From the NCBI RefSeq assembly GCF_003260195.1, contig NZ_QEIH01000009.1, positions 1-64,000 of the forward strand: 64,000 bases of DNA, read 5' to 3'. Positions within the stretch are counted from its first letter, which is position 1. Each line of letters begins with the position of its first letter. The translations under genes were made by a program, and so were the position numbers. Shown here one piece after another: positions 52,281-64,000 of this stretch. Source of the DNA: Lutibacter citreus (GTDB lineage Bacteria; Bacteroidota; Bacteroidia; Flavobacteriales; Flavobacteriaceae). The notes under the pieces were generated by a model. That model was not told where the DNA came from, made no database searches, and saw only the letters and a list, made by a program, of their open reading frames with translations.

Positions 52281-53018
52281 ATGAAAGTAGGTTTATTTAT
52301 CCCCTGTTATATCAATCAATTATATCCACAAGTGGCTATTGCAACTTTGGAATTACTTGAAAAATTAAATGTTGATGTTTATTATCCATCAACCCAAACT
52401 TGTTGTGGGCAGCCGTTAGGGAATTCGGGTTATGAAGATGATTCTAAAGGAGCTTGTCAATTATTTGTAGAAAATTTTAAAGAATATGATTATATAGTTG
52501 GCCCTTCAGGAAGTTGTATTTATCATGTAAAAAAGCATTTCGATATTTTAGAACAAACAGAAGATGTAATTAAGGTTCGTAACAATGCTTATGAGTTATG
52601 TGAGTTTATTGTTAAGATCTTAGGCAAAACGGATTTAGGAGCTAAATTTCCATATAAAGTAGGCTTACATAAAAGTTGTCACGGATTGAGAGGTTTAAAC
52701 TTAGGATCTTGTTCAGAAAAAATGGATGAACATTTTTCTACAGAAGAAGAATTATTAAATGCTGTTGAAGGATTAGAATTAATGTCTTTAAACAGAAAAG
52801 ATGAATGTTGCGGTTTTGGAGGAACATTTTCTGTATTTGAAGAAGCAATTTCTGTAAAAATGGGAAAGGATAGGATTCAAGATCATTTAGATAGTGGTGT
52901 TGAAGTTATCACAGGAGCAGATCATTCTTGTTTAATGCATATGGAAGGTTTAATTAATAGAGACAATAAACCTTTAAAAGTAATGCATATTGCTGAAATT
53001 TTAAATAGTAGTATTTAG
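52281..53018 (+). CDS. lutA: L-lactate utilisation Fe-S protein LutA (YkgE)
   Basis: 245 residues. Two Cys-rich CCG-type motifs: TCCGQPLGNSGY near residue 45 and DECCGFGGTF near residue 180, as in the LutA/YkgE and heterodisulfide-reductase-like oxidoreductases. LutABC oxidises L-lactate to pyruvate. It starts the lutABC set; lutB begins 2 bases after its stop. Context: lactate made by the preceding fuconate enzymes. Confidence 0.9.
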   Translation: MKVGLFIPCYINQLYPQVAIATLELLEKLNVDVYYPSTQTCCGQPLGNSGYEDDSKGACQLFVENFKEYDYIVGPSGSCIYHVKKHFDILEQTEDVIKVRNNAYELCEFIVKILGKTDLGAKFPYKVGLHKSCHGLRGLNLGSCSEKMDEHFSTEEELLNAVEGLELMSLNRKDECCGFGGTFSVFEEAISVKMGKDRIQDHLDSGVEVITGADHSCLMHMEGLINRDNKPLKVMHIAEILNSSI

Positions 53019-53020
53019 TT

Positions 53021-54391
53021 ATGAGCCATTCAGAAAAAGCAGAAATATTCAACAAAAATGAGGCTAAAGTAAATTGGCATGATAAAGCTTTGTGGTTTGT
53101 TCGTGAAAAAAGAGATACGGCAGCTCATAAAGTAAAAGGTTGGGAAGAACTTCGAAATTTAGCTTCTGGAATAAAAGCAAATGTACTGTCTAATTTAGAT
53201 GAATATTTAATAGAATTTGAGGAGAATGCTCAAAAAAATGGGATAAAAGTACATTGGGCATCAGATGCTGAAGAGCATAATACTATTATTCATAAAATAT
53301 TAGAAGATAATAAAGTTGAAAAAGTGGTAAAAAGTAAGTCAATGTTGACGGAAGAATGCCATTTAAATCCATTTTTAGAAGATAGAGGTATTGAAGTAAT
53401 TGATACCGATTTAGGAGAGCGTATTGTTCAATTAGCAAAAGAAACTCCAAGTCATATTGTATTGCCTGCAATTCATAAAACCAAAGAAGAAGTAGATACA
53501 TTATTTCAAGAACATTTAGGAACAAAACCAAGCAATGGAAATCCTGAATATTTAACAAATGAAGCAAGAAAGCATTTACGAGATAAATTTTTAAAAGCGG
53601 ATGCAGCTATTACCGGTGTTAATTTTGCCATAGCAGAAACAGGAGGAATTGTTGTTTGTACCAATGAAGGGAATGCTGATATGGGTGCTCATTTGGTAAA
53701 AACTCATATTGCTTGTATGGGAATTGAAAAAATAATTCCGAATGAAGAGCATTTAGGAGTCTTTCTACGTTTACTAGCACGCAGTGCAACCGGACAACCA
53801 ATTACAACATATTCATCCCATTTTAACAAGCCTGCTGAAGGCAAAGAAATGCACATTGTAATTGTAGATAATGGTAGAACAGAGCAGTTGAGTCGTAAAG
53901 AATTTAGGTCTTCTTTACATTGTATTCGTTGTGGTGCTTGTATGAATACTTGCCCAATATACAGAAGAAGTGGAGGTCATAGTTATGATGCTACAATTCC
54001 AGGTCCAATAGGATCCATTTTATCACCAGGAAAAGATTTAACAAAACATAGTTCACTACCTTTTGCTTCAACCTTATGTGGTTCATGTTCAAATGTTTGC
54101 CCAGTGAAAATTAATATTCATGAGCAGTTATATGCTTGGCGACAAATTGTTACAAAAGAAGTTAAGCAACCTGTAGTTAAGAAAACTATATTAAAAATTA
54201 CTGGAGTAGCTCTTTCAAATAGATTATTATTCAATATAGCAGGTAAATCGGCGCGGTTTATGTTAAAATATGCACCTCGATTTATGGTGTATTCTAAATT
54301 AAATGTTTGGGGAAAAGCACGTGAACTTCCAGAAATAAAGAATCAAAATTTTGATGATTGGTATAAAGTAAAAAGAAAGAATAATGGGTAG
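53021..54391 (+). CDS. lutB: L-lactate utilisation Fe-S protein LutB (YkgF)
   Basis: 456 residues. The LUD domain (~60-300) includes ITGVNFAIAETGGIVVCTNE and is followed by two [4Fe-4S] motifs, CIRCGACMNTCP and CGSCSNVCP (~305-365), and a C-terminal DUF3390-like tail. It is the electron-transfer subunit of the Lut complex. Its end overlaps lutC by 8 bases, so translation is coupled. Confidence 0.93.
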   Translation: MSHSEKAEIFNKNEAKVNWHDKALWFVREKRDTAAHKVKGWEELRNLASGIKANVLSNLDEYLIEFEENAQKNGIKVHWASDAEEHNTIIHKILEDNKVEKVVKSKSMLTEECHLNPFLEDRGIEVIDTDLGERIVQLAKETPSHIVLPAIHKTKEEVDTLFQEHLGTKPSNGNPEYLTNEARKHLRDKFLKADAAITGVNFAIAETGGIVVCTNEGNADMGAHLVKTHIACMGIEKIIPNEEHLGVFLRLLARSATGQPITTYSSHFNKPAEGKEMHIVIVDNGRTEQLSRKEFRSSLHCIRCGACMNTCPIYRRSGGHSYDATIPGPIGSILSPGKDLTKHSSLPFASTLCGSCSNVCPVKINIHEQLYAWRQIVTKEVKQPVVKKTILKITGVALSNRLLFNIAGKSARFMLKYAPRFMVYSKLNVWGKARELPEIKNQNFDDWYKVKRKNNG

Positions 54392-54965
54392 AGAATCAAT
54401 TTTAAAATCAATAAAAAGTAATAAGCCAGAGTTAGTAGAGCTGCCTGAAATTGACCTAAATTTATTTGCAGAAGAAATTGATATTTTAGAAGCATTTAAA
54501 AGTAATGTTAAATTGGTAGGAGGTAAATTAAAAGAGTTAGGAGATAATGAAGATATAGACTCTGTTATTAGAGAATTATACCCAAAAGCAGAAAGAATAG
54601 TTTCTCAACTACCTGGTTCAAATCTAAGGACAGTTTTAATAACAAAAGAAACAGAACCACATTCTCTTGAAAAAATTGATTTAGCAATAATAAAAGGCGA
54701 ATTTGGTGTCGCAGAAAATGGATCTGTTTGGGTTTCTGAAAATCAGTTTTCAGTACGAGTTTTACCTTTCATAACAAATGATTTAGTAATTGTTTTATCA
54801 AAGAAAGACCTATGTTTACATATGCATGAAGCCTATAAGAAAATTGCTAATAGAGATCGTAATTTTGGCCTTTTTATTTCAGGGCCATCAAAAACAGCAG
54901 ATATTGAGCAGTGTTTGGTGATTGGGGCACAAGGAGCAATGAGTTTAACAATTGTATTAATTTAA
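54384..54965 (+). CDS. lutC: L-lactate utilisation protein LutC (YkgG)
   Basis: 193 residues, a single LUD (DUF162) domain with EFGVAENGSVWVSE and FISGPSKTADIEQCLVIGAQ, the signature end of LutC. Third subunit of the lactate oxidation complex. Starts inside the end of lutB. No lactate permease is adjacent, consistent with lactate arising inside the cell. Confidence 0.92.
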   Translation: MGRESILKSIKSNKPELVELPEIDLNLFAEEIDILEAFKSNVKLVGGKLKELGDNEDIDSVIRELYPKAERIVSQLPGSNLRTVLITKETEPHSLEKIDLAIIKGEFGVAENGSVWVSENQFSVRVLPFITNDLVIVLSKKDLCLHMHEAYKKIANRDRNFGLFISGPSKTADIEQCLVIGAQGAMSLTIVLI

Positions 54966-55141: not shown

Positions 55142-56074
55142 TTGCAGGCAAAAGAAGACATTCCATTTCATCAATTTTCCGACACATATAAAGATGTAAA
55201 TATAAAGGATGGACATCCTGCGCTTGCAATTGATCCAAGTTTTCCATTTATAATAACTCAATTTGGTATTATGAGCCGAAAGGCACAAGCTACAATTCCT
55301 CATAGACATGATTATTATGAAATTTTATTTATTGAAGAGGGAGCTGGACAGCATATTATTGATTATGAGTCCTATAAAATAAAAACACCTGCTTTTTATT
55401 TCCTATCTAAAGGACAAATACATTTTTGGAAATTAGAAAAAGGGTTGGAAGGAAAGGTGCTGCTTTTTCCAAGAGAATTTTTGATACCTCCTGCAACAGC
55501 ATTTAATCATGAAGGCGATTTGGCAATTTTTAATACTTTAAGTAAAGCTCCATTTGTTAATATTAATAATGCTAATTGCACTAAAATACAGGAATTATTT
55601 AAAGGTATTAATGAAGAGTTTTTGAGAAAATCAGACAGTAGCCTTTCTATGCTTCGTGCTTATGTACATATTTTATTGGTGAGTCTATTTCGTATTTATG
55701 CAAAGGAGCAAAATCAAGATATTTTAGATACAACCAATGCAATGGTTCGTAAATTTAGACAACTAGTTTCCGAAAATTATTTAACTATTCGTTCTGTTCA
55801 GGAATATGCAGATCTTATAGGGATAAGTTCAACTCACCTAAGAGATACAGTTAAAAAAATAACAGGATATTCGCCAGGACAACTTATTAGACAAGAAATT
55901 ATTTTTGAAGCTAAACGAAGATTAGCTAATACAGAATTAACAACAGCTGAAATTGGTTATACGTTGAATTTTGAAGATACTTCTTACTTTAGTAGGTTTT
56001 TTAAACGAGAAACAGGTAAAAGACCTTCAGAATATCGAGAAGAAATTAGAAAAAAATACCAAATTACAGTTTAA
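55142..56074 (+). CDS. AraC-family transcriptional regulator with cupin sensor, TTG start
   Basis: 310 residues. There is no in-frame ATG or GTG in the upstream leader, so the TTG at 55142 is taken as the start. The N-terminal cupin (~45-130) reads IPHRHDYYEILFIEEGAGQH; the C-terminal HTH region (~205-305) has RSVQEYADLIGISSTHLRD and SYFSRFFKRETGKRPSEY. It lies between lutC and the OsmC-fold genes on the same strand and could control either. The shared upstream element of the downstream genes (see the repeats at 56218, 57693 and 62654) is a possible target. That link is inference. Confidence 0.88.
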   Translation: MQAKEDIPFHQFSDTYKDVNIKDGHPALAIDPSFPFIITQFGIMSRKAQATIPHRHDYYEILFIEEGAGQHIIDYESYKIKTPAFYFLSKGQIHFWKLEKGLEGKVLLFPREFLIPPATAFNHEGDLAIFNTLSKAPFVNINNANCTKIQELFKGINEEFLRKSDSSLSMLRAYVHILLVSLFRIYAKEQNQDILDTTNAMVRKFRQLVSENYLTIRSVQEYADLIGISSTHLRDTVKKITGYSPGQLIRQEIIFEAKRRLANTELTTAEIGYTLNFEDTSYFSRFFKRETGKRPSEYREEIRKKYQITV

Positions 56075-56217: not shown

Positions 56218-56280
56218 ATTGAAAAGTACCATGCTTTCAGTATTTAGTACTCTAATTATCAGGTGTAAAACCCATAATTT
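56218..56280 (+). promoter_or_regulatory. Shared regulatory element, copy 1, with promoter
   Basis: The core TTGAAAAGTACCATGCTTTC (from 56219) recurs upstream of two other transcription units (57693, 62654). It contains an imperfect dyad TGAAAAG-N6-GCTTTCA. A TAATTTCG box (one mismatch to TAnnTTTG) lies ~57 bases after the element start, as in the other copies. The OsmC gene starts 54 bases further on. Confidence 0.65.
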
Positions 56281-56334
56281 CGTTTCATAATAAATCATTC
56301 ACTTTATTTAAGTGAAATTTAAAAGATTATAAAG

Positions 56335-57645
56335 ATGGAAATGAAAAAAAATGAGAGCATATTAATTATGTTAATTACTCTTTTAATTAGTAGTGTGCCA
56401 GTTTATACCCAGAACATTGTAAATAGTGCAAAAAAAAATCAAGGAATTTCAACCAATTATAATGTAATATCTAGAAGTAATATTGGACCAAGGCCAGCGG
56501 CATTTCAGCCAACAAAACCAACGCCTATAAATGGTACTTATACTGAAAGCGTTGCTACGGCGTCAACAAGAGTGTTAAATGAAGAAACGGTTATGCTAAA
56601 AAAAGTGAATGTACAACCTATAGGCGAAAAAGACTTTAGCGCATGGGAGTTTTTATGTGATGAAGGTGGTCATACCTACAAGCAATCGGCACCAAACCCA
56701 TTAAGTTATATGGTTGGCGGTATATCTTCTAGTTTATTAACACGCGTGGAGCAAGCTATAAAAATTATGGATTTAGATGTTGCTAGCGCAAAAGTAGAAA
56801 CTAAAGTATTTTTTAGATTCAACGATCCTTTTTCACCTAGTTGGACAGGCTATACCGATAAAGTTATTGCCAATGTTCTTATTGAAAGTGATGAACCTGC
56901 ATGGAAAATTTCTGAAGTAAAAAAAATGGCGGTTCAGGCTTGGGCTATAGGGGAATGCATTGCAAATCCAACACCTGTAGATGCACAATTTACATTTAAC
57001 ACCAAAATATGGGAAACTGAATCTGCCCGTTCTGGAAAAGTTATAGATTCTAATTCATTTGATAATGGTTTGAGAATTACTTCAAAAGGAATCCAACCAG
57101 AGCCTGAGAGTTTTAAGATTTCAGCTGATGTTAGTATGGAGAAGTTTACAAACCCATTTAAGTTTGAAGTAGTAGGTATTTCGGAGTCGGCCAATAATGA
57201 TCAACGACCTTACCTGCATAAAATTAAAATTAGAGCTATTCAAGAAAACTACCTAGCATGGGATATTTATGCCGATGATAGTCGTGGATTTAAAGGTATT
57301 GATAAGGCTCCAACTTCAAGTGATTATTTTACAGGAGGAACTTCATTGTGTCTTATGAGTCAACTAACCGGATGGTCAGAGTTTTACAAACAGCAAGGTA
57401 TTAAATTTGATGATTATCGTGTGGAGCACCAATTCAATTATCAAGTAGATAACTATATGACTCCTTCAGCAATAGGGCATGTAGATAGTGTAATTACAAG
57501 AATCTTAATAAAAAGCGATAACAGCGAAAAAGTAATGAGTGATTATGCCAAGCATGCACTTAGTACCTGTTTTGCAGGTGAGGCTGTTACAGGAGCAACT
57601 AAAACAGAAATAGGTGTTTATTTAAACGGAAAATTAGTTAAATAA
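56335..57645 (+). CDS. Exported protein with two OsmC-fold domains (copy 1)
   Basis: 436 residues with a signal peptide ending VPVYTQ. Two OsmC-like units: domain 1 (~85-225) reads APNPLSYMVGGISSSLLTRV and ends with WAIGECIANP; domain 2 (~275-436) reads APTSSDYFTGGTSLCLMSQL and STCFAGEAVTG. In OsmC/Ohr hydroperoxide reductases two Cys residues, in just these positions, form the active pair. Domain 2 keeps both (Cys339, Cys412), whereas domain 1 has Ser in the first place and only Cys208 in the second. OsmC proteins are normally single-domain and cytoplasmic, so a secreted tandem form is unusual. A paralogue follows directly. Confidence 0.75.
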   Translation: MEMKKNESILIMLITLLISSVPVYTQNIVNSAKKNQGISTNYNVISRSNIGPRPAAFQPTKPTPINGTYTESVATASTRVLNEETVMLKKVNVQPIGEKDFSAWEFLCDEGGHTYKQSAPNPLSYMVGGISSSLLTRVEQAIKIMDLDVASAKVETKVFFRFNDPFSPSWTGYTDKVIANVLIESDEPAWKISEVKKMAVQAWAIGECIANPTPVDAQFTFNTKIWETESARSGKVIDSNSFDNGLRITSKGIQPEPESFKISADVSMEKFTNPFKFEVVGISESANNDQRPYLHKIKIRAIQENYLAWDIYADDSRGFKGIDKAPTSSDYFTGGTSLCLMSQLTGWSEFYKQQGIKFDDYRVEHQFNYQVDNYMTPSAIGHVDSVITRILIKSDNSEKVMSDYAKHALSTCFAGEAVTGATKTEIGVYLNGKLVK

Positions 57646-57692
57646 AAAAACTAAACACAAAGTTAAGTCGCTTTATAGTACAATATTAAACT

Positions 57693-57757
57693 TTTGAAAA
57701 GCAGCATGCTTTCAGTAATTAGTGCCTTATCAGGCATTTATAAAATAAATAATTTTG
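57693..57757 (+). promoter_or_regulatory. Shared regulatory element, copy 2, with promoter
   Basis: TTGAAAAGCAGCATGCTTTC (from 57694) followed by AGTAATTAGTGCC matches copy 1 closely, and an exact TAATTTTG box lies at 57750-57757. An inverted repeat TGCC-TTATCA-GGCA lies between (57723-57736). The second OsmC gene starts 20 bases after the box. Confidence 0.65.
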
Positions 57758-57777
57758 TGAATTAAATTAATTAAAAA

Positions 57778-59115
57778 ATGAAAACAAAAATAAGTAAGAT
57801 TATTGCAGCCGTTATTGTTATTATAGCCCTTGTTATTGGTGTATTTTGGTTTTCTATGCCTAGCGAGCAACGAAATATGGTATATTTTATGATGAAAAAA
57901 GGAAAAAGTTATGAAAATTATAAAGATTACCAGGTTATTGATCGTAATAATGAAGCCCTAGCTCCAACATCTTTTAAACCTAGTGTTGCCGATACAATTG
58001 GGGGACATAATAATAGAAATATTGTGGCAATTACAGAAATGGTGAAAAATGAAAATTCAAAGATGCTAAAAAAAGGAATGGTCCAAGCTACAGGTATAGA
58101 TAACTATACTGGATGGCATCTAATTGCAGATGAAGGAGCTGATGAGGGAGCAAATCCTTTTGGACCTTCACCACTTAGTTATTATACTTCTGGTTTAGCA
58201 GCAAATTTACATACGGAGATTCTTAGGGCGGCTGAACTTAAAGGAGTTAAGCTAGAAAATGTAAAAGTAGAAGTGTTAAATAAATTTCGTTGGAATGAGA
58301 TGATGTCTCCTGAAGGGGCTGGATTTTTAGATTTAACAACTACAAATATAATTATAGAAAGCAATGTGTCTAAAGAGGTTATTCAAGAAATAAAAGAGTT
58401 GGCTCTTAATTCATGGACTGCAGGAGAAGCGTTGAGAAATGAAACAGTAATTGAACCGTCTCTAGTAGTAAATGGAGAAAATTGGGAGAATTACCGAGCT
58501 ACACCGGGGAGAACCCTTTCTGAAGAATCTATTATTGATAACTTTAAATTAAGCTCTATAACTGATGTGCCAAAAAAACCAGCGTATCTAAAACCAGTTG
58601 TTAAAGAGGAAGTTACTCCAAGTTTTGAATCCATGGCAAATTTGGAGTTTGAAATATTTGCTATTTCTGAGTCTGTTGAAAATAGTGATAGACCCTATTT
58701 GAATAAAATTACGCTTTCAACTCCTACACCAGAAACTTGGGAAATATATGCAGATGAATTTATGGGAGATAATGATCGTCCTATAGCACCTACTTCTTTG
58801 GAATATTTTACCGCTGGAACAGCTTTATGCTTAACTTCACAAACAACATTAGTTAGCGCTATGATGGATTTAGAATTTACTGATTACCGTATTGAGAACC
58901 AGATTGATTATAGACAAGAAGCTGTAAATTCTTCTGAAATGCATAGCTATGCAGATATTGTTCATTCATACATTTTAATTGAATCAAATGAAACTCAAGA
59001 AAGATTAGAAGCCTTCTATAATAAATCTTTATCATTGTGTTTTGCAGGTGAAGGACTTAAAAATGCAACGGAAATGAAAACCCAATGCTATTTAAATGGA
59101 AAGATTATAAAATAA
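57778..59115 (+). CDS. Membrane-anchored protein with two OsmC-fold domains (copy 2)
   Basis: 445 residues. An N-terminal membrane segment (IIAAVIVIIALVIGVFWF, ~8-25) probably stays as an anchor. Domain 1 (~85-235): GPSPLSYYTSGLAANLHTEI, with no Cys in either active position. Domain 2 (~290-445): IAPTSLEYFTAGTALCLTSQ (Cys351) and SLCFAGEGLKN (Cys421), the complete OsmC pair. It has the same two-domain plan as copy 1, so the pair arose by gene duplication after domain duplication. Expected to face the periplasm; activity on peroxides or other thiol-reactive compounds is possible but unproven. A terminator follows. Confidence 0.75.
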   Translation: MKTKISKIIAAVIVIIALVIGVFWFSMPSEQRNMVYFMMKKGKSYENYKDYQVIDRNNEALAPTSFKPSVADTIGGHNNRNIVAITEMVKNENSKMLKKGMVQATGIDNYTGWHLIADEGADEGANPFGPSPLSYYTSGLAANLHTEILRAAELKGVKLENVKVEVLNKFRWNEMMSPEGAGFLDLTTTNIIIESNVSKEVIQEIKELALNSWTAGEALRNETVIEPSLVVNGENWENYRATPGRTLSEESIIDNFKLSSITDVPKKPAYLKPVVKEEVTPSFESMANLEFEIFAISESVENSDRPYLNKITLSTPTPETWEIYADEFMGDNDRPIAPTSLEYFTAGTALCLTSQTTLVSAMMDLEFTDYRIENQIDYRQEAVNSSEMHSYADIVHSYILIESNETQERLEAFYNKSLSLCFAGEGLKNATEMKTQCYLNGKIIK

Positions 59116-59234
59116 TATTTTTAAAAATTAATAAACAATAAATTGATAGTTAAAAGAGTTAAGTCCACTAAAAGAAGGGTACGAAAGTAAAATAGCTATT
59201 TGTAATGAGTTAATTACTTATTGTTTAGTATTTA

Positions 59235-59272
59235 AGAGTTGATGTTTTAATTTCATCAACTCTATTTTTTTC
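59235..59272 (+). terminator. Rho-independent terminator after OsmC gene 2
   Basis: The perfect arms AGAGTTGATG (59235-59244) and CATCAACTCT (59254-59263) surround a 9-base loop and are followed by ATTTTTTTC. It ends the OsmC transcript before the TonB receptor gene. Confidence 0.85.
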
Positions 59273-59364
59273 AAAGGAGATTCTAAAAAAAAACTTAAAA
59301 AATCAATTAATAGAAAGGATAACACTACTCTTAATTCAATTTCAATAAAAAAACGATAAAAAAA

Positions 59365-61758
59365 ATGATAAGGAAGTACTTAAAAGTATTTAAAGTTAAA
59401 ATGTTACTATTACTAGTTTTTAGTTCATTCACAATGTTTGGACAACAAAAGCAAACTGTTAGTGGTGTTGTGAAAGACGCTTTAAATGGTGAAACTTTAA
59501 TTGGAGCAACAGTTTATTTTAAAAACACCAATATTGCTAGTGTTACAAATGAATATGGGTTTTATTCTCTAACTGCAAAAGAAGGAAATTATACGTTAGT
59601 TGTAGCGTATCTAGGATTTGTAAATATTGAAAAACAGATTGATTTAAAAGAAAATAAAAAAATAAATTTTGAATTAGAAGAAAGCGCTTCACAACTAGAA
59701 GAGGTTGAAATTTCCGCAAGTGAATCTAAAAAGGTGAATTTAAGAACACCTCAAATGAGTGTTTCTAAATTGTCATCTAAAATAATAAAACAAATTCCAG
59801 CAGTTATGGGAGAAGTAGATATTATTAAATCAATTCAATTATTACCAGGTGTTACTAATTCAGGCGAAGGTGCTTCAGGGTTTAATGTTCGTGGAGGTGC
59901 TGAAGATCAAAATTTAATTTTATTAGATGAGGCCGTTATTTATAATTCATCCCATTTATTTGGTTTTTTCTCAGTATTTAATAATGATGCTGTAAAAGAT
60001 ATAAAATTATATAAGGGAGGAATTCCTTCTCAATTTGGAGGTAGAGTATCGTCAGTATTAGATATTAGACAAAAAGATGGAAACAGTAAAAATTTAAGTT
60101 TTACTGGAGGAATTGGCGCTATTTCAAGTAGGTTAACTGTTGAAGGTCCAACCTTTAAAGATAAAGGGTCTTTTATTGTTGCTGGTCGTTCTTCTTATGT
60201 GAATTTATTTTTAAAATTAGCAGATAATAACAATAGTGCTGGTTTTTATGATTTAAATTTTAAAACTAATTATAAAATAAATGATAATAATAAGTTGTAT
60301 TTATCTGGTTATTACGGACAAGATAATTTTAATATAGAGGAGGCTTTTTCAAACTCTTATGGGAATTTAATTACAAATTTAAGATGGAGTCATATTTTTA
60401 ATGATAAACTGTTTTCAAACCTTTCTCTTATCTATAGCCGATATAATTATAATATGGAATTGGATTTTAGAGGTTTAGAATGGGAGTCTGATATTAATAA
60501 TTACAATTTAAAATACGATTTCAGTTATTATAAAAGTGAAAACTTAAAATTTAAGTTTGGAACAAGCTTAATATATTATCAATTTAATCCTGGTTTATTA
60601 AGTCCTTTAAATGAAGATTCAGGAATAAACAGGCTAAATTTAGATGATAAGTTTGCTTATGAAAGTGGTATTTACGCTAGTTTAGAACATAAAATAAGTG
60701 ACAAATTAACTACAATGTATGGAGTGCGTTATAGTAACTTTAATAGAGTAGGTAATCAAGTAATTAGCAATTACCTAAATAATGCACCTGTTGTTTATAA
60801 CTCTAAATTAGGAATATATGAAAGTGCAGAAGCTGTAAGTGAAACTGAATATTCAAGTGGTGAAAGCATTGCCTCATACGGTAATTTTGAACCTAGAGCA
60901 GCAATTTCATATAAATTAACGGATGATTCTTCGGTAAAAGCAAGTTACAATCGAATGGCTCAATATTTACATTTAATTTCTAATACAACATCAGCTACAC
61001 CTCTTGATATTTGGACACCTAGTGGTGAATATATAAAACCTCAATTAGCAGATCAATACGCTGTTGGATACTTTAGAAATTTTAATAATGATAAATATTC
61101 TCTTGAAGCTGAAGCCTATTACAAAACTGTTGATAATAGAGTAGATTATATTGATGGAGCAGATTTAATTGCTCAGAATAATATAGAAACTGAAATTTTA
61201 ATAGGAGAATCTAGATCTTATGGATTAGAGTTATTGCTAAGAAAAAATACAGGAAAGTTTACCGGTTGGTTAGCATATACACTTTCTAAGGCCGAACAAA
61301 AAACAGATGGAGGTTCAATTGGTGGTTTAGGTATTAATAATGGAAAATGGTATAATTCAGCATATGATAGAACACACGATATTTCGTTTACAGGAAATTA
61401 TAAACTAAATAATAAATGGAGTTTTGGTACAAATTTTGTTTTTCAAACTGGTAGACCAGTAACATATCCAAACGGTCAATTTCAATATAATGGATTATCA
61501 ATTCCAACATATTCTGAAAGAAATGCTGATAGATTGCCAGCTTATCATCGTTTAGATGTATCTGCAACCTTAATTCCTAAAAAAAATAAAAACAGAAAGT
61601 GGCAAGGAGAATGGGTATTTAGTATCTATAATGTTTATAACAGAAGTAATGCAGCATCCATTACATTTGGGCAAAATACAGATACAGGAGCTAATGAGGC
61701 AACACGTACTTCAATCTTTGGAATTATTCCAGCAGTTACTTACAATTTTAAATTTTAG
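59365..61758 (+). CDS. TonB-dependent outer-membrane receptor with carboxypeptidase-like N-domain
   Basis: 797 residues with a signal peptide ending TMFGQQ. The N-terminal CarboxypepD_reg-like sandwich (~25-110) reads VSGVVKDALNGETLIGATVY; the plug (~125-235) has GASGFNVRGGAEDQNLILLD; then the barrel, ending YNFKF. It is shorter than SusC proteins and lacks STN, and its partner is a DUF4249 lipoprotein rather than SusD, a recurring pair in Bacteroidota. The transported ligand is unknown. It has its own transcription start after the terminator at 59272. Confidence 0.9.
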   Translation: MIRKYLKVFKVKMLLLLVFSSFTMFGQQKQTVSGVVKDALNGETLIGATVYFKNTNIASVTNEYGFYSLTAKEGNYTLVVAYLGFVNIEKQIDLKENKKINFELEESASQLEEVEISASESKKVNLRTPQMSVSKLSSKIIKQIPAVMGEVDIIKSIQLLPGVTNSGEGASGFNVRGGAEDQNLILLDEAVIYNSSHLFGFFSVFNNDAVKDIKLYKGGIPSQFGGRVSSVLDIRQKDGNSKNLSFTGGIGAISSRLTVEGPTFKDKGSFIVAGRSSYVNLFLKLADNNNSAGFYDLNFKTNYKINDNNKLYLSGYYGQDNFNIEEAFSNSYGNLITNLRWSHIFNDKLFSNLSLIYSRYNYNMELDFRGLEWESDINNYNLKYDFSYYKSENLKFKFGTSLIYYQFNPGLLSPLNEDSGINRLNLDDKFAYESGIYASLEHKISDKLTTMYGVRYSNFNRVGNQVISNYLNNAPVVYNSKLGIYESAEAVSETEYSSGESIASYGNFEPRAAISYKLTDDSSVKASYNRMAQYLHLISNTTSATPLDIWTPSGEYIKPQLADQYAVGYFRNFNNDKYSLEAEAYYKTVDNRVDYIDGADLIAQNNIETEILIGESRSYGLELLLRKNTGKFTGWLAYTLSKAEQKTDGGSIGGLGINNGKWYNSAYDRTHDISFTGNYKLNNKWSFGTNFVFQTGRPVTYPNGQFQYNGLSIPTYSERNADRLPAYHRLDVSATLIPKKNKNRKWQGEWVFSIYNVYNRSNAASITFGQNTDTGANEATRTSIFGIIPAVTYNFKF

Positions 61759-61763
61759 AAATT

Positions 61764-62585
61764 ATGAAAAACATATATATAAAGCTTGTTATTAGTTGTT
61801 TAACATTGTTAATTGTTTCGTGTACCGAAACTGTAGATGTTGATGTGCCAAATGGAGGTGAACGTTTAGTTGTTGAAGCTTCAATTTTATGGGAAAAAGG
61901 TACAACCGGACAAAACCAAGAGATTAAATTATCAAAATCTACTGAATATTTTGCAGATGAATTAGATATTCCTGTTGAAGGTGCGTTAGTGAGTATAACT
62001 AATAATGATTCTAATGAAATTTTTGAATTTCAATATGAAGGAAATGGAACGTATAGCACAACTAATTTTAATCCAATAATTGGGGATTCATATACTTTAG
62101 AAATTAATTATGAAGGAGAGCGCTATTTAGCAACTGACACATTTGCTTCAGGTATAGAAATTTCATCAATAACACAAAGTATAGAAAGTAGGTTTGGTAG
62201 TGATGAAATAAATATAAAAGTGAATTATTTAGACCCTCAGTCAACTGAAAATTATTATTTGGCAGAATTTATTCCATCTCATAAACCATTAATTTCTTTA
62301 GATTCATCAGATGATGAATTTTATAATGGAAATATTTTCTTTTTAGAATACGAAGATGAAGATTTAGAGCCAGGCGTTAATGTACAAGTTAAACTACACG
62401 GAATTTCAGAGGATTATTACAATTATATTGAAATTTTAATAAGTCAGTTAGGTGAAAAAGGTCCTTTTCAAACAACTCCTGTTTCTTTAAAAGGAAACTG
62501 TGTAAATGTAAATAATACTGAAGAAGAAGTTTTAGGTTATTTCAGGTTAAATGAGGTTGATGTAAAAGATGTTACCGTTGAATAA
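61764..62585 (+). CDS. DUF4249-family surface lipoprotein
   Basis: 273 residues; the lipoprotein signal ends LLIVSC. A DUF4249 start (TETVDVDVPNGGERLVVEAS, then GALVSITNNDSNEIFEF) followed by a beta-rich domain. It lies 5 bases after the TonB receptor and is probably its cell-surface partner, analogous to SusD. Function beyond this is unknown. Confidence 0.82.
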   Translation: MKNIYIKLVISCLTLLIVSCTETVDVDVPNGGERLVVEASILWEKGTTGQNQEIKLSKSTEYFADELDIPVEGALVSITNNDSNEIFEFQYEGNGTYSTTNFNPIIGDSYTLEINYEGERYLATDTFASGIEISSITQSIESRFGSDEINIKVNYLDPQSTENYYLAEFIPSHKPLISLDSSDDEFYNGNIFFLEYEDEDLEPGVNVQVKLHGISEDYYNYIEILISQLGEKGPFQTTPVSLKGNCVNVNNTEEEVLGYFRLNEVDVKDVTVE

Positions 62586-62653
62586 AGGGAATACAATTTT
62601 TTTATTAATCATTATTTTGGATGTTATTCGTTGAAATATTTACGAGTTGAATC

Positions 62654-62718
62654 ATTGAAAAGTACCATGTTTCCGTTTACTTGTCTCTTACATGCTATAA
62701 TTAAAACATATAATTTTG
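62654..62718 (+). promoter_or_regulatory. Shared regulatory element, copy 3, with promoter
   Basis: TTGAAAAGTACCATGTTTCC (from 62655) is nearly the same as copies 1 and 2, and TAATTTTG lies at 62711-62718, at the same distance (~57 bases). The DUF4405-like gene starts 51 bases later. Confidence 0.65.
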
Positions 62719-62769: not shown

Positions 62770-63117
62770 ATGTTTAGAAAAATAGTATCAATATCGCTTC
62801 TTGTATCGTTAATGGCATTGGCTTCATCAGGAATAATGATGATAGTCTTAAACAGTCTCGAATTTCAATTGCAAATGCATCCAGTGCATAAAATCTTTGG
62901 AATTTTAATGACTATTTCGGGATGTTTTCACGTGTATTTCAACTTTAAACCCATTAAAAAATATTTAAGTCTTCGAAAAGTATTAGTATTTGGAATAGGT
63001 ATGGTATTAATAATGTCATTTTTATATGTTGTTGGAATAAACAAACCTTTAGATAAGCAAAAAATTCAAGAAATTGAGGTGTTAATGTCTCAACTTGAAG
63101 GAGGAAATCAAAAATAA
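62770..63117 (+). CDS. DUF4405-like small membrane protein
   Basis: 115 residues with three likely membrane segments (~5-27, ~40-57, ~69-89). The middle one, HPVHKIFGILMTISGCFHVY, carries His residues at positions used for haem in DUF4405/cytochrome b561-type proteins. The C-terminal tail is charged and cytoplasmic or periplasmic. It is 5 bases upstream of the metallo-beta-lactamase gene and shares a promoter element with the OsmC genes. Haem binding is a suggestion only. Confidence 0.7.
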   Translation: MFRKIVSISLLVSLMALASSGIMMIVLNSLEFQLQMHPVHKIFGILMTISGCFHVYFNFKPIKKYLSLRKVLVFGIGMVLIMSFLYVVGINKPLDKQKIQEIEVLMSQLEGGNQK

Positions 63118-63122
63118 AAATT

Positions 63123-64000
63123 ATGAATACTTTTAATCATCTTATTAAACAAATAAATTTCAGAATAATAGTTGTTTTAATTGTAACAATTTTGGTAACA
63201 GCTTGTAATAATAAGCTTAAAAACAAGGTTGAACAAGAACATCCCAACATTACTCAATTAAAAAAGAATTCAGCAGAATTTACTCCTGAGATTATTAAAA
63301 TGAATGCAAACGTGTATGTTGCTGTTGGATATGATGGCTCAAATGCAGCAATGTTAATTGGAAAAGATGGAGTAATAATTATAGATGCTCTTAGAGCTCT
63401 GGGAGCTGCAGAAAAAGTAGCTTCAGAATTTAAAAAAATCTCAAATAAACCTGTAAAAGCACTTATATACACACACGGTCATTTAGATCATACCGGAGGA
63501 ACTTCAGCATTTGTTGGAACTGAAAAGAATGTAAAAATAATTGCCAGGGAAGGTTTTAAAAAAGAATTACAAGAACATTCTCCAGTCCAAAATATTTTAG
63601 AAAAACGTAATGGACGCCAATTTGGAAGAAATTTACCCAAAGAAGATATTATTAACAGAGGTGTTGCTGCTGGTTCAACATCAAAAGACAGAGTGAATAA
63701 AGGTTATATAAAGCCCAATACCTTTTTTAAAGATTCATTGTTTGTAAATATTGCTGGTGTTTCTTTAGAAATTTACAAGGCTAATGGAGAAACAAACGAT
63801 GCACTATTTGTGTGGTGTCCTAAAGAAAAAGTATTGTTTTCAGGTGATAATTATTACAAGGCATTTCCAAATTTATATGCCATAAGAGGTTCTAAATACA
63901 GAGATGTGAAATCTTGGGGAGAAGTAATTAAAAAAATGAGTACGTTTCCTGTGGAATATTTAGTGCCAGGACATACACGTCCAATTTCAGGAAGAGCTTT
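63123..64000 (+). CDS. Alkyl-sulfatase-like metallo-beta-lactamase lipoprotein, partial
   Basis: Open from ATG 63123 to the window edge (292 codons seen, C-terminus missing). The lipoprotein signal ends ILVTAC. The zinc motif THGHLDHTGG (HxHxDH) is complete and a later PGHTRPISG gives another ligand. GETNDALFVW and FSGDNYYKAFPNLYAIRGS, followed by KYRDVKSWGE, resemble the SdsA1/BDS1 group that cleaves alkyl sulfate esters. It is co-transcribed with the DUF4405-like gene. It could cleave a sulfate or other ester in the periplasm; lactonase or other metallo-beta-lactamase activity is not excluded. Confidence 0.8.
   Translation, partial: MNTFNHLIKQINFRIIVVLIVTILVTACNNKLKNKVEQEHPNITQLKKNSAEFTPEIIKMNANVYVAVGYDGSNAAMLIGKDGVIIIDALRALGAAEKVASEFKKISNKPVKALIYTHGHLDHTGGTSAFVGTEKNVKIIAREGFKKELQEHSPVQNILEKRNGRQFGRNLPKEDIINRGVAAGSTSKDRVNKGYIKPNTFFKDSLFVNIAGVSLEIYKANGETNDALFVWCPKEKVLFSGDNYYKAFPNLYAIRGSKYRDVKSWGEVIKKMSTFPVEYLVPGHTRPISGRA

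Follow-up and report, generated by a model that had tools for sequence, protein, structure and literature searches.

The first 64,000 nucleotides of contig C35 (NZ_QEIH01000009.1) of Lutibacter citreus, which we call the window, contain three near-identical short elements upstream of two genes for OsmC-like proteins and of an operon for a DUF4405 protein and a metallo-β-lactamase (MBL)-fold protein. A preliminary description of this DNA regarded the three units as a small local regulon, which raises the question of which regulator acts on the elements and what response they serve. We propose, with a probability of about 0.83, that each element is an operator-promoter on which the product of the gene at position 55142, an AraC-type activator, acts, and that together they drive a dehalogenation regulon centred on the reductive dehalogenase RdhA; binding, activation, the ligand and the function of the module are the parts of this proposal that we infer. 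The predicted regulon and its regulator are well supported by sequence. What can be read directly from the sequences are the sites themselves and their constant geometry, their confinement, within the sets searched, to genomes that carry this AraC gene, and their positions ahead of RdhA and the genes around it.

Results

Repeated element and promoter box in L. citreus

The 20-mer TTGAAAAGYASCATGYTTYC was matched exactly at 56219, 57694 and 62655 in the window, each time on the + strand, and the same-strand blocks described ahead of both OsmC genes and the DUF4405/MBL operon were thus recovered. In dinucleotide shuffles of the window (n = 100, up to 3 mismatches allowed), the mean number of matches was 0.14, and 3 or more matches were obtained in 0 of 100. 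The genome-wide motif search that the preliminary description had suggested gave the three window copies as the only matches at 0–2 mismatches anywhere in the 35 contigs (5.11 Mb) of the genome. At 3 mismatches, 9 more scattered matches appeared against 7 for a reversed control pattern, and these matches therefore look like chance.

The distance from the start of the element to the start of the TAATTT(T/C)G box was 56 bases in all three copies; the fixed spacing noted earlier was correct, but its value is 56, start to start, and not approximately 57. TAnnTTTG is the −7 box of the flavobacterial primary sigma factor and spans −12 to −5 (PMC9723704, in the text available). TAATTT(T/C)G fits this box, and each element is therefore an upstream block at a fixed distance from a promoter box. 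The conserved block extends to about column 38 and includes a second, weaker conserved half. Site 1 comprises a distal half block (TTGAAAAGTACCATGCTTTC, 56219..56238), a proximal half (columns 28–36, 56246..56254) 21 bp downstream of the distal core and a −7 box (TAATTTCG, 56275..56282) at +56. The corresponding parts lie at 57694..57713, 57721..57729 and 57750..57757 in site 2 and at 62655..62674, 62682..62690 and 62711..62718 in site 3, both with the box TAATTTTG, and all three sites are on the + strand. A fourth, diverged copy (site 4, C35:64669-64732) with the same architecture and the same spacing of +56 begins 0.67 kb past the end of the window, has 4 mismatches to the 20-mer and lies 91 bases upstream of the RdhA start.

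The 20-mer alone was unspecific, being matched with no more than 2 mismatches in 71 of the 248 genomes searched (own included). It was rejected as a genome marker and therefore replaced by a 38-column motif and then by a 64-column model (R1); unlike the 20-mer, the 64-bp architecture is specific.

An Rfam search of the window and C35:62001-82000 at gathering thresholds detected no RNA element near the sites and no cobalamin riboswitch. The only matches were a tRNA and a piece of a group II intron, neither of them near the sites, and a reading of the sites as RNA elements was rejected. The intron piece (domain match to RF01998, 47 bits) lies at 30-104 on the + strand, at the very start of the contig.

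Site geometry across Bacteroidota

The 38-column motif was built from 8 Lutibacter sites with the promoter box left out and was applied at thresholds of 11, 15 or 5 bits, depending on the locus scan. Nine loci outside Lutibacter gave 11 matches of at least 15 bits. Ten of these, in Maribacter, Labilibaculum, Ancylomarina and Marinifilum (28–52 bits), all had TAnnTTTG at exactly +56, where the chance of the box is 0.0009 per position. Two further matches (7.6 and 8.7 bits) appeared only at the 5-bit threshold, both without the box. When the sequences of 13 sources were reversed, no match was obtained at 11 bits.

In total, 18 Bacteroidota sites were collected from 9 genomes or loci of Lutibacter, Maribacter, Labilibaculum, Ancylomarina and probably Marinifilum. 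TAnnTT(T/C)G was present at +56 in 18/18 sites (TAnnTTTG in 17 and TAnnTTCG in 1), and nowhere else between offsets 38 and 89. The pairwise identity of the 18 sites was 0.82 in columns 1–20, 0.63 in columns 21–38, 0.35 in the spacer (columns 39–56), 0.84 in the box and 0.34 in the 30 nt upstream. Because the half blocks and the box are conserved and the spacer and flank are not, this pattern points to the footprint of two protein contacts and not to a copied repeat. The cores of the half-sites are AGTRCCAT (columns 7–14) and AGTnnCTTA (columns 28–36). A direct-repeat self-match was best at 21 bp among 27 offsets, a score that was reached by 30 of 2000 column permutations, the proximal half being weak. 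With the box taken to span −12 to −5, the distal core would lie at approximately −62 to −55 and the proximal core at approximately −41 to −33.

Genes behind the sites

The 18 sites precede RdhA (7 sites), OsmC (5), DUF4405 or MBL/DUF4405 (4), a TonB receptor (1, in Lutibacter oricola) and an AhpD-like CMD gene (1), and RdhA is thus the commonest target. The close Bacteroidota RdhA genes found, namely that of L. citreus and six at 86–91%, had a site 90–215 bases upstream in 7/7 cases. An RdhB-like gene follows RdhA in all seven and an RdhC-like gene in six, the seventh sequence ending earlier. Seven RdhA paralogues (29–38%) elsewhere in these Bacteroidota genomes had none of the listed R1 matches nearby. 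The three window elements look like one local regulon, but the regulon as first described was incomplete, since the fourth site lies past the window before RdhA, its proposed centre. As RdhA is the most frequent target and the fourth site precedes it, the response is more likely to be to organohalide than to peroxide, sulfite or detergent.

AraC regulator and its relatives

The gene at 55142..56074 (+) encodes an AraC/XylS-family regulator of 310 aa, a presumed activator with a TTG start; this start and the N-terminus recur in the genomes G009 and G011. Its C-terminal double helix-turn-helix matched PF12833 (4.3e-20) and PF00165 (3.5e-12), both above cut-off, and its profile matched the AraC DNA-binding domain 2k9s. 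The N-terminal cupin-like ligand-binding domain matched PF02311 (1.6e-08, 34.8 bits, cut-off 21.1).

Among 248 genomes (own included), two others carried a close orthologue of this AraC (81% and 88%), and one had a distant match (31%). A wider scan with two peptide patterns, covering one genome per species in 84,980 species, gave 8 loci: two from Lutibacter and one each from Maribacter polysiphoniae, Labilibaculum MAG11, Ancylomarina, Desulfosediminicola flagellatus (48%), Maribacter aquimaris (a remnant) and Aquimarina. The Aquimarina protein (L063, 24%) was dropped as not orthologous. Each of the 7 related loci has OsmC, RdhA or DUF4405, or more than one of them, together with the AraC gene or what is left of it. 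RdhA is within the locus in M. polysiphoniae, Labilibaculum MAG11 and Desulfosediminicola, and 2 kb past the end of the locus (L051) in L. oricola; for Ancylomarina only the locus was covered, and no RdhA is in view there. Genome-wide searches found no RdhA in Lutibacter 4-1427 (G011) and M. aquimaris. The latter has a broken AraC remnant and no site above 13.8 bits, and has kept OsmC and an intact gene for a second AraC-family protein, AraC2. The AraC orthologue occurs in a similar neighbourhood in three further genomes from the Labilibaculum family, which are probably those of L. filiforme, L. antarcticum and an uncultured Marinifilum. A search of 395 genomes of the class gave four distant AraC matches (207–219 bits) besides the own genome. 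In one genome (G031), which lacks an orthologue of the AraC at 55142, there is a distant RdhA (31%, with an in-frame stop). Metagenome contigs carry at least 120 of 276 AraC homologues as listed, and at least three pairs of RdhA and AraC matches agree in the length of their longest contig (323519, 52633 and 9889), so that the two genes may be linked there.

In Desulfosediminicola flagellatus (L061), the AraC gene is divergent to RdhA (68–69%), and after the AraC gene come a TPR gene, another RdhA-like gene (551 aa) and a further RdhC-like gene.

Distribution of sites and AraC orthologues

R1 is a sequence-only covariance model of 64 columns built from 13 sites, one of them from Ancylomarina. 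In the L. citreus genome it gave four sites of at least 49 bits (the model includes them), and the next among the matches listed scored 16.9 bits. In 60 relatives (stricter filters for more than 40 genomes), 8 matches reached at least 49 bits, all of them R1 members in the 3 AraC-positive genomes (4, 3 and 1). The next best among the matches listed was 20.8 bits (G011), and the best among those listed for the 57 AraC-negative relatives was 19.1 bits.

An out-of-model test was made with the 56 genomes of the family of the Labilibaculum metagenome-assembled genome, which is itself in R1 and leaves 55. Sites were found in 3/3 AraC-positive and 0/52 AraC-negative genomes, an outcome expected once in 26,235 under random labels (calculated by hand, with genomes treated as independent). 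The 3 positive genomes contained five sites (36.8–44.7 bits), all no more than 13 kb from the AraC gene, and no match listed for the 52 negative genomes (E up to 0.05) exceeded 18.2 bits. In the 6.8 Mb genome of Desulfosediminicola, whose AraC is 48% identical, the best R1 match scored 16.6 bits and the next 15.8 bits; the weak match lies 74–77 bases after its AraC gene. The AraC at 55142, which the preliminary description had named as the protein to try on the element, is the best candidate regulator, as its orthologues accompany the sites across genomes.

Reductive dehalogenase module beyond the window

The sequence past the window was read from C35:62001-82000 (L042). RdhA (C35:64760-66226) matched TIGR02486 with 264.6 bits (cut-off 160.35) and PF13486 with 108.7 bits (cut-off 24.3), and it has a twin-arginine signal (by eye) and two iron-sulfur motifs. 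In an alignment with PceA, RdhA has the counterparts of its catalytic Tyr and Arg, Y246 and R305. Directly after RdhA lies a small hydrophobic open reading frame of 103 aa (C35:66245-66556), which we call RdhB-like; it has counterparts in the relatives and no Pfam match, and a search for an RdhB motif found nothing. The next gene (C35:66600-67784) is RdhC/NosR-like with FMN_bind and Fer4_5 domains. RdhC is defined by the flavin mononucleotide (FMN) motif [S/T]G[A/S]TX[S/T] and two CX3CP motifs (PMC5928378, in the text available), and both CX3CP motifs were invariant in 5/5 RdhC-like proteins. The cluster ends with a gene for a MetA-type outer-membrane protein (C35:67942-68853). A tRNA gene directly after it (C35:69101-69174, L042:7101-7174) could mark an island border.

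Other genes of the cluster

OsmC1 (56335..57645, +) and OsmC2 (57778..59115, +) each have two OsmC-like domains, with PF02566 above cut-off in both; by eye, OsmC1 has a signal peptide and OsmC2 an N-terminal hydrophobic stretch. In the C-terminal OsmC domain, C339 and C412 were invariant (8/8), and the N-terminal domain has no invariant Cys. An AhpD-like CMD domain and an OsmC1-type protein form one open reading frame in L. oricola (L051:6988-8892), Ancylomarina (L060:12784-14736) and M. aquimaris, and are encoded by separate genes in M. polysiphoniae and L. filiforme. The OsmC1 reading frame of M. polysiphoniae (L058:12011-13297) contains an in-frame TGA.

The DUF4405 gene (62770..63117, +) encodes a small membrane protein that scored 27.9 bits against a cut-off of 26.7, with three His conserved in 6/6 aligned homologues. 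This conservation is in line with a haem-b-like role, and the earlier designation as a haem-like membrane protein is plausible. The MBL-fold protein (462 aa, lipoprotein-like by eye) is encoded at 63123..64000 (+) in the window, and its gene ends at C35:64511. The alkyl-sulfatase-like character ascribed to it is supported by the alkyl-sulfatase dimerisation domain PF14863 (E 2.4e-37).

Between OsmC2 and site 3 lie genes for a TonB-dependent receptor (59365..61758, +) and its lipoprotein-like DUF4249 partner (61764..62585, +). The preliminary description stated that this pair lacks the element, which is true in the window, where the best upstream score was −17.5 against 36.8–53.3 for the 18 sites; yet the L. 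oricola orthologue of the receptor (89%) is preceded by a site (L051:8912). On the other side of the cluster, LutABC-type lactate utilisation genes (52281-54965) lie directly upstream of the AraC gene, and a scan of the whole window found no site near them.

Discussion

Proposed mechanism

In the proposed mechanism, each site would consist of two direct-repeat half-sites, 21 bp apart, for two AraC monomers. The proximal half over the −33 region would take the place of the −33 contact, in the manner of promoters dependent on AraC-type activators. With the proximal half in this position and the box at a fixed distance, two activator monomers could therefore touch RNA polymerase directly. In the presence of its ligand, probably a halogenated phenolic compound, the activator would turn on a dehalogenation module consisting of RdhA with the RdhB- and RdhC-like proteins, the small haem-like membrane protein, extracytoplasmic thiol proteins of the OsmC type and an MBL-fold protein (here alkyl-sulfatase-like); in some species a TonB receptor may be added. 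We regard a halogenated phenolic compound as the likeliest inducer because the dehalogenase is the chief target. As for the sulfatase-like lipoprotein, we can only guess that it releases halophenols from their sulfate esters. In a wider and more tentative view, to which we give slightly less than even odds, an AraC regulon that senses organohalides has spread together with a single RdhA lineage among marine Bacteroidota and, in diverged form, Desulfobacterota, with the two-domain OsmC and the alkyl-sulfatase-like lipoprotein as working parts that perhaps release and handle algal halophenol sulfate esters.

Weighing of the evidence

Several observations weigh against an AraC-driven dehalogenation regulon. 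Of the two halves the proximal one is the weaker, and support for the direct repeat is moderate; an inverted-repeat reading was rejected with a best score of −1.78 against −0.82 for the 21-bp direct repeat, and the margin is narrow. The AraC gene itself has no site upstream, and several OsmC, CMD and other cluster genes are also without one. In Desulfosediminicola, which belongs to another phylum, the eleventh match to the 38-column motif is weak (15 bits), lacks the box and is not among the 18, and there is no site in front of RdhA at 11 bits. The FMN motif of the RdhC-like proteins is SSATYS in 4 Bacteroidota, with Gly replaced by Ser, and SGATYT in Desulfosediminicola. Two kinds of MBL protein are encoded behind the sites, and the alkyl-sulfatase domain occurs only in that of the window; the L. 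oricola protein tested lacks it, and that of G011 is 93% identical to the L. oricola protein. To our knowledge, neither OsmC nor sulfatase-like proteins have a known tie to dehalogenation. Finally, the uncultured Lutibacter G011 has kept AraC and one site before MBL/DUF4405/DUF3861, without RdhA and without an OsmC match; the regulon can therefore exist without a dehalogenase and is not strictly tied to it there.

The last genome would also suit a stress or detoxification response, concerned with thiols and peroxide or with sulfate esters, in which RdhA is a passenger, for G011 retains AraC, the site and MBL/DUF4405; the recurrence of OsmC and AhpD-like CMD partners agrees with this as well. 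We nevertheless consider it unlikely, in view of the site before RdhA in 7/7 Bacteroidota genomes found with a close RdhA, the rank of RdhA as most frequent target, the RdhB-like genes and, in six of seven, RdhC-like genes that follow it, and the AraC–RdhA neighbourhood that reaches another phylum. Alternatively, the sites might be bound by a different regulator, for example AraC2, whose gene adjoins the AraC gene in L. oricola, Labilibaculum MAG11, L. filiforme, Marinifilum and Ancylomarina and whose products are 78–92% identical to that of MAG11 (Ancylomarina left out of the comparison). But M. polysiphoniae and L. antarcticum have sites and no AraC2 match at 1e-50, the intact AraC2 of M. 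aquimaris is accompanied by no sites, and the best AraC2 match in the L. citreus genome is only 44% and on another contig. As sites occur without AraC2 and AraC2 without sites, the sites follow the AraC at 55142, and control by AraC2 or another regulator is very unlikely.

OsmC1 and OsmC2 are paralogues with 33% identity, and the 76-nt blocks are 62–71% alike to the first copy, as would be expected if the elements were remnants of a local duplication in which tandem OsmC paralogues carried their promoter along. The block, however, precedes the unrelated genes for DUF4405, RdhA, the TonB receptor and CMD, and its geometry is constant across several genera at a spacer and upstream flank identity of only 0.34–0.35. 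This explanation was rejected because the geometry was kept while the spacer and flank diverged, and we give it hardly any credence.

Significance

If control by the AraC at 55142 is correct, the switch by which marine Bacteroidota govern organohalide use is identified, along with its precise promoters and the genes that belong to it, and the 64-bp signature could tie genes of obscure role (OsmC, DUF4405 and MBL) to dehalogenation by regulation. Reductive dehalogenases in Bacteroidota were reported as new from metagenome bins in 2025 (PMC12090745, in the text available). Isolates with strain numbers carry the predicted system, namely Lutibacter oricola DSM 24956 and Maribacter polysiphoniae DSM 23514, and the inducer could be sought there.

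Comparison with known systems

In the open-licence PMC literature, we found no paper that describes a reductive dehalogenase under the control of an AraC-type protein together with a site or a regulon, and what is in print there amounts to hints from gene neighbourhoods. The available text of PMC12908670 describes a Btr-like regulator gene upstream of a reductive dehalogenase in a marine bin from a Desulforhopalus-dominated community. Btr models match the AraC at 55142 weakly (56.8 bits), and this Btr-like neighbour is therefore taken as AraC-type. An AraC-family gene is one of the 63 families listed as exclusive to organohalide-respiring Sulfurospirillum (PMC8865925), and PsrR is an AraC-family regulator of polysulfide reductase (PMC6682613). 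In the text available from these three reports there is no binding site, no regulon and no proof that a dehalogenase is controlled, and none of them concerns Bacteroidota. In the corresponding text of PMC11921367, araC is part of an expression strain.

The Bacteroidota bins from Aarhus Bay, like L. citreus, contain reductive dehalogenase genes, and some of those in the bins are transcribed; the regulators listed there are of the CRP/FNR, two-component, ECF, HrcA, DtxR, SarZ, AcrR and LysR types, and the main text uses neither the word AraC nor the word OsmC (PMC12090745). The known regulators of rdh clusters are CprK/RdhK (CRP/FNR), Rdh2R (MarR), two-component systems and sigma-54 activators, as given in the available parts of PMC7755780, PMC6299228 and PMC7031245. 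As in L. citreus, the regulator gene in these clusters lies within the cluster and is expected to respond to organohalides (same sources). The regulator proposed here differs from them in belonging to another protein family and in the several promoters per cluster, rather than one rdh operon, on which it would act.

The L. citreus cluster shares with rdhABC (pceABC) clusters an RdhA with a twin-arginine signal and two iron-sulfur motifs, an RdhB-like protein and an RdhC-like protein with FMN_bind and two CX3CP motifs. It differs from pceABC in its occurrence in Bacteroidota, in its OsmC, DUF4405, MBL and TonB genes, in the absence of a Pfam match for the RdhB-like protein and in the Ser that replaces the FMN-motif Gly of RdhC.

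The closest named model to the AraC at 55142 is that of HpaA (TIGR02297), the 4-hydroxyphenylacetate regulator, and its score of 119.9 bits is below the cut-off of 274.65 for membership. AraC/XylS-type sites consist of two direct-repeat half-sites 21 bp apart, with the proximal one next to or over the −35 region. The regulons of AraC/XylS activators, such as AraC at araI1-I2 and XylS at Pm, have regulators with the same C-terminal double helix-turn-helix and N-terminal cupin-like sensor as the AraC at 55142. In contrast to these regulons, that of L. citreus has the −7 box of the Bacteroidota sigma-A and the genes of a dehalogenase module as its predicted targets.

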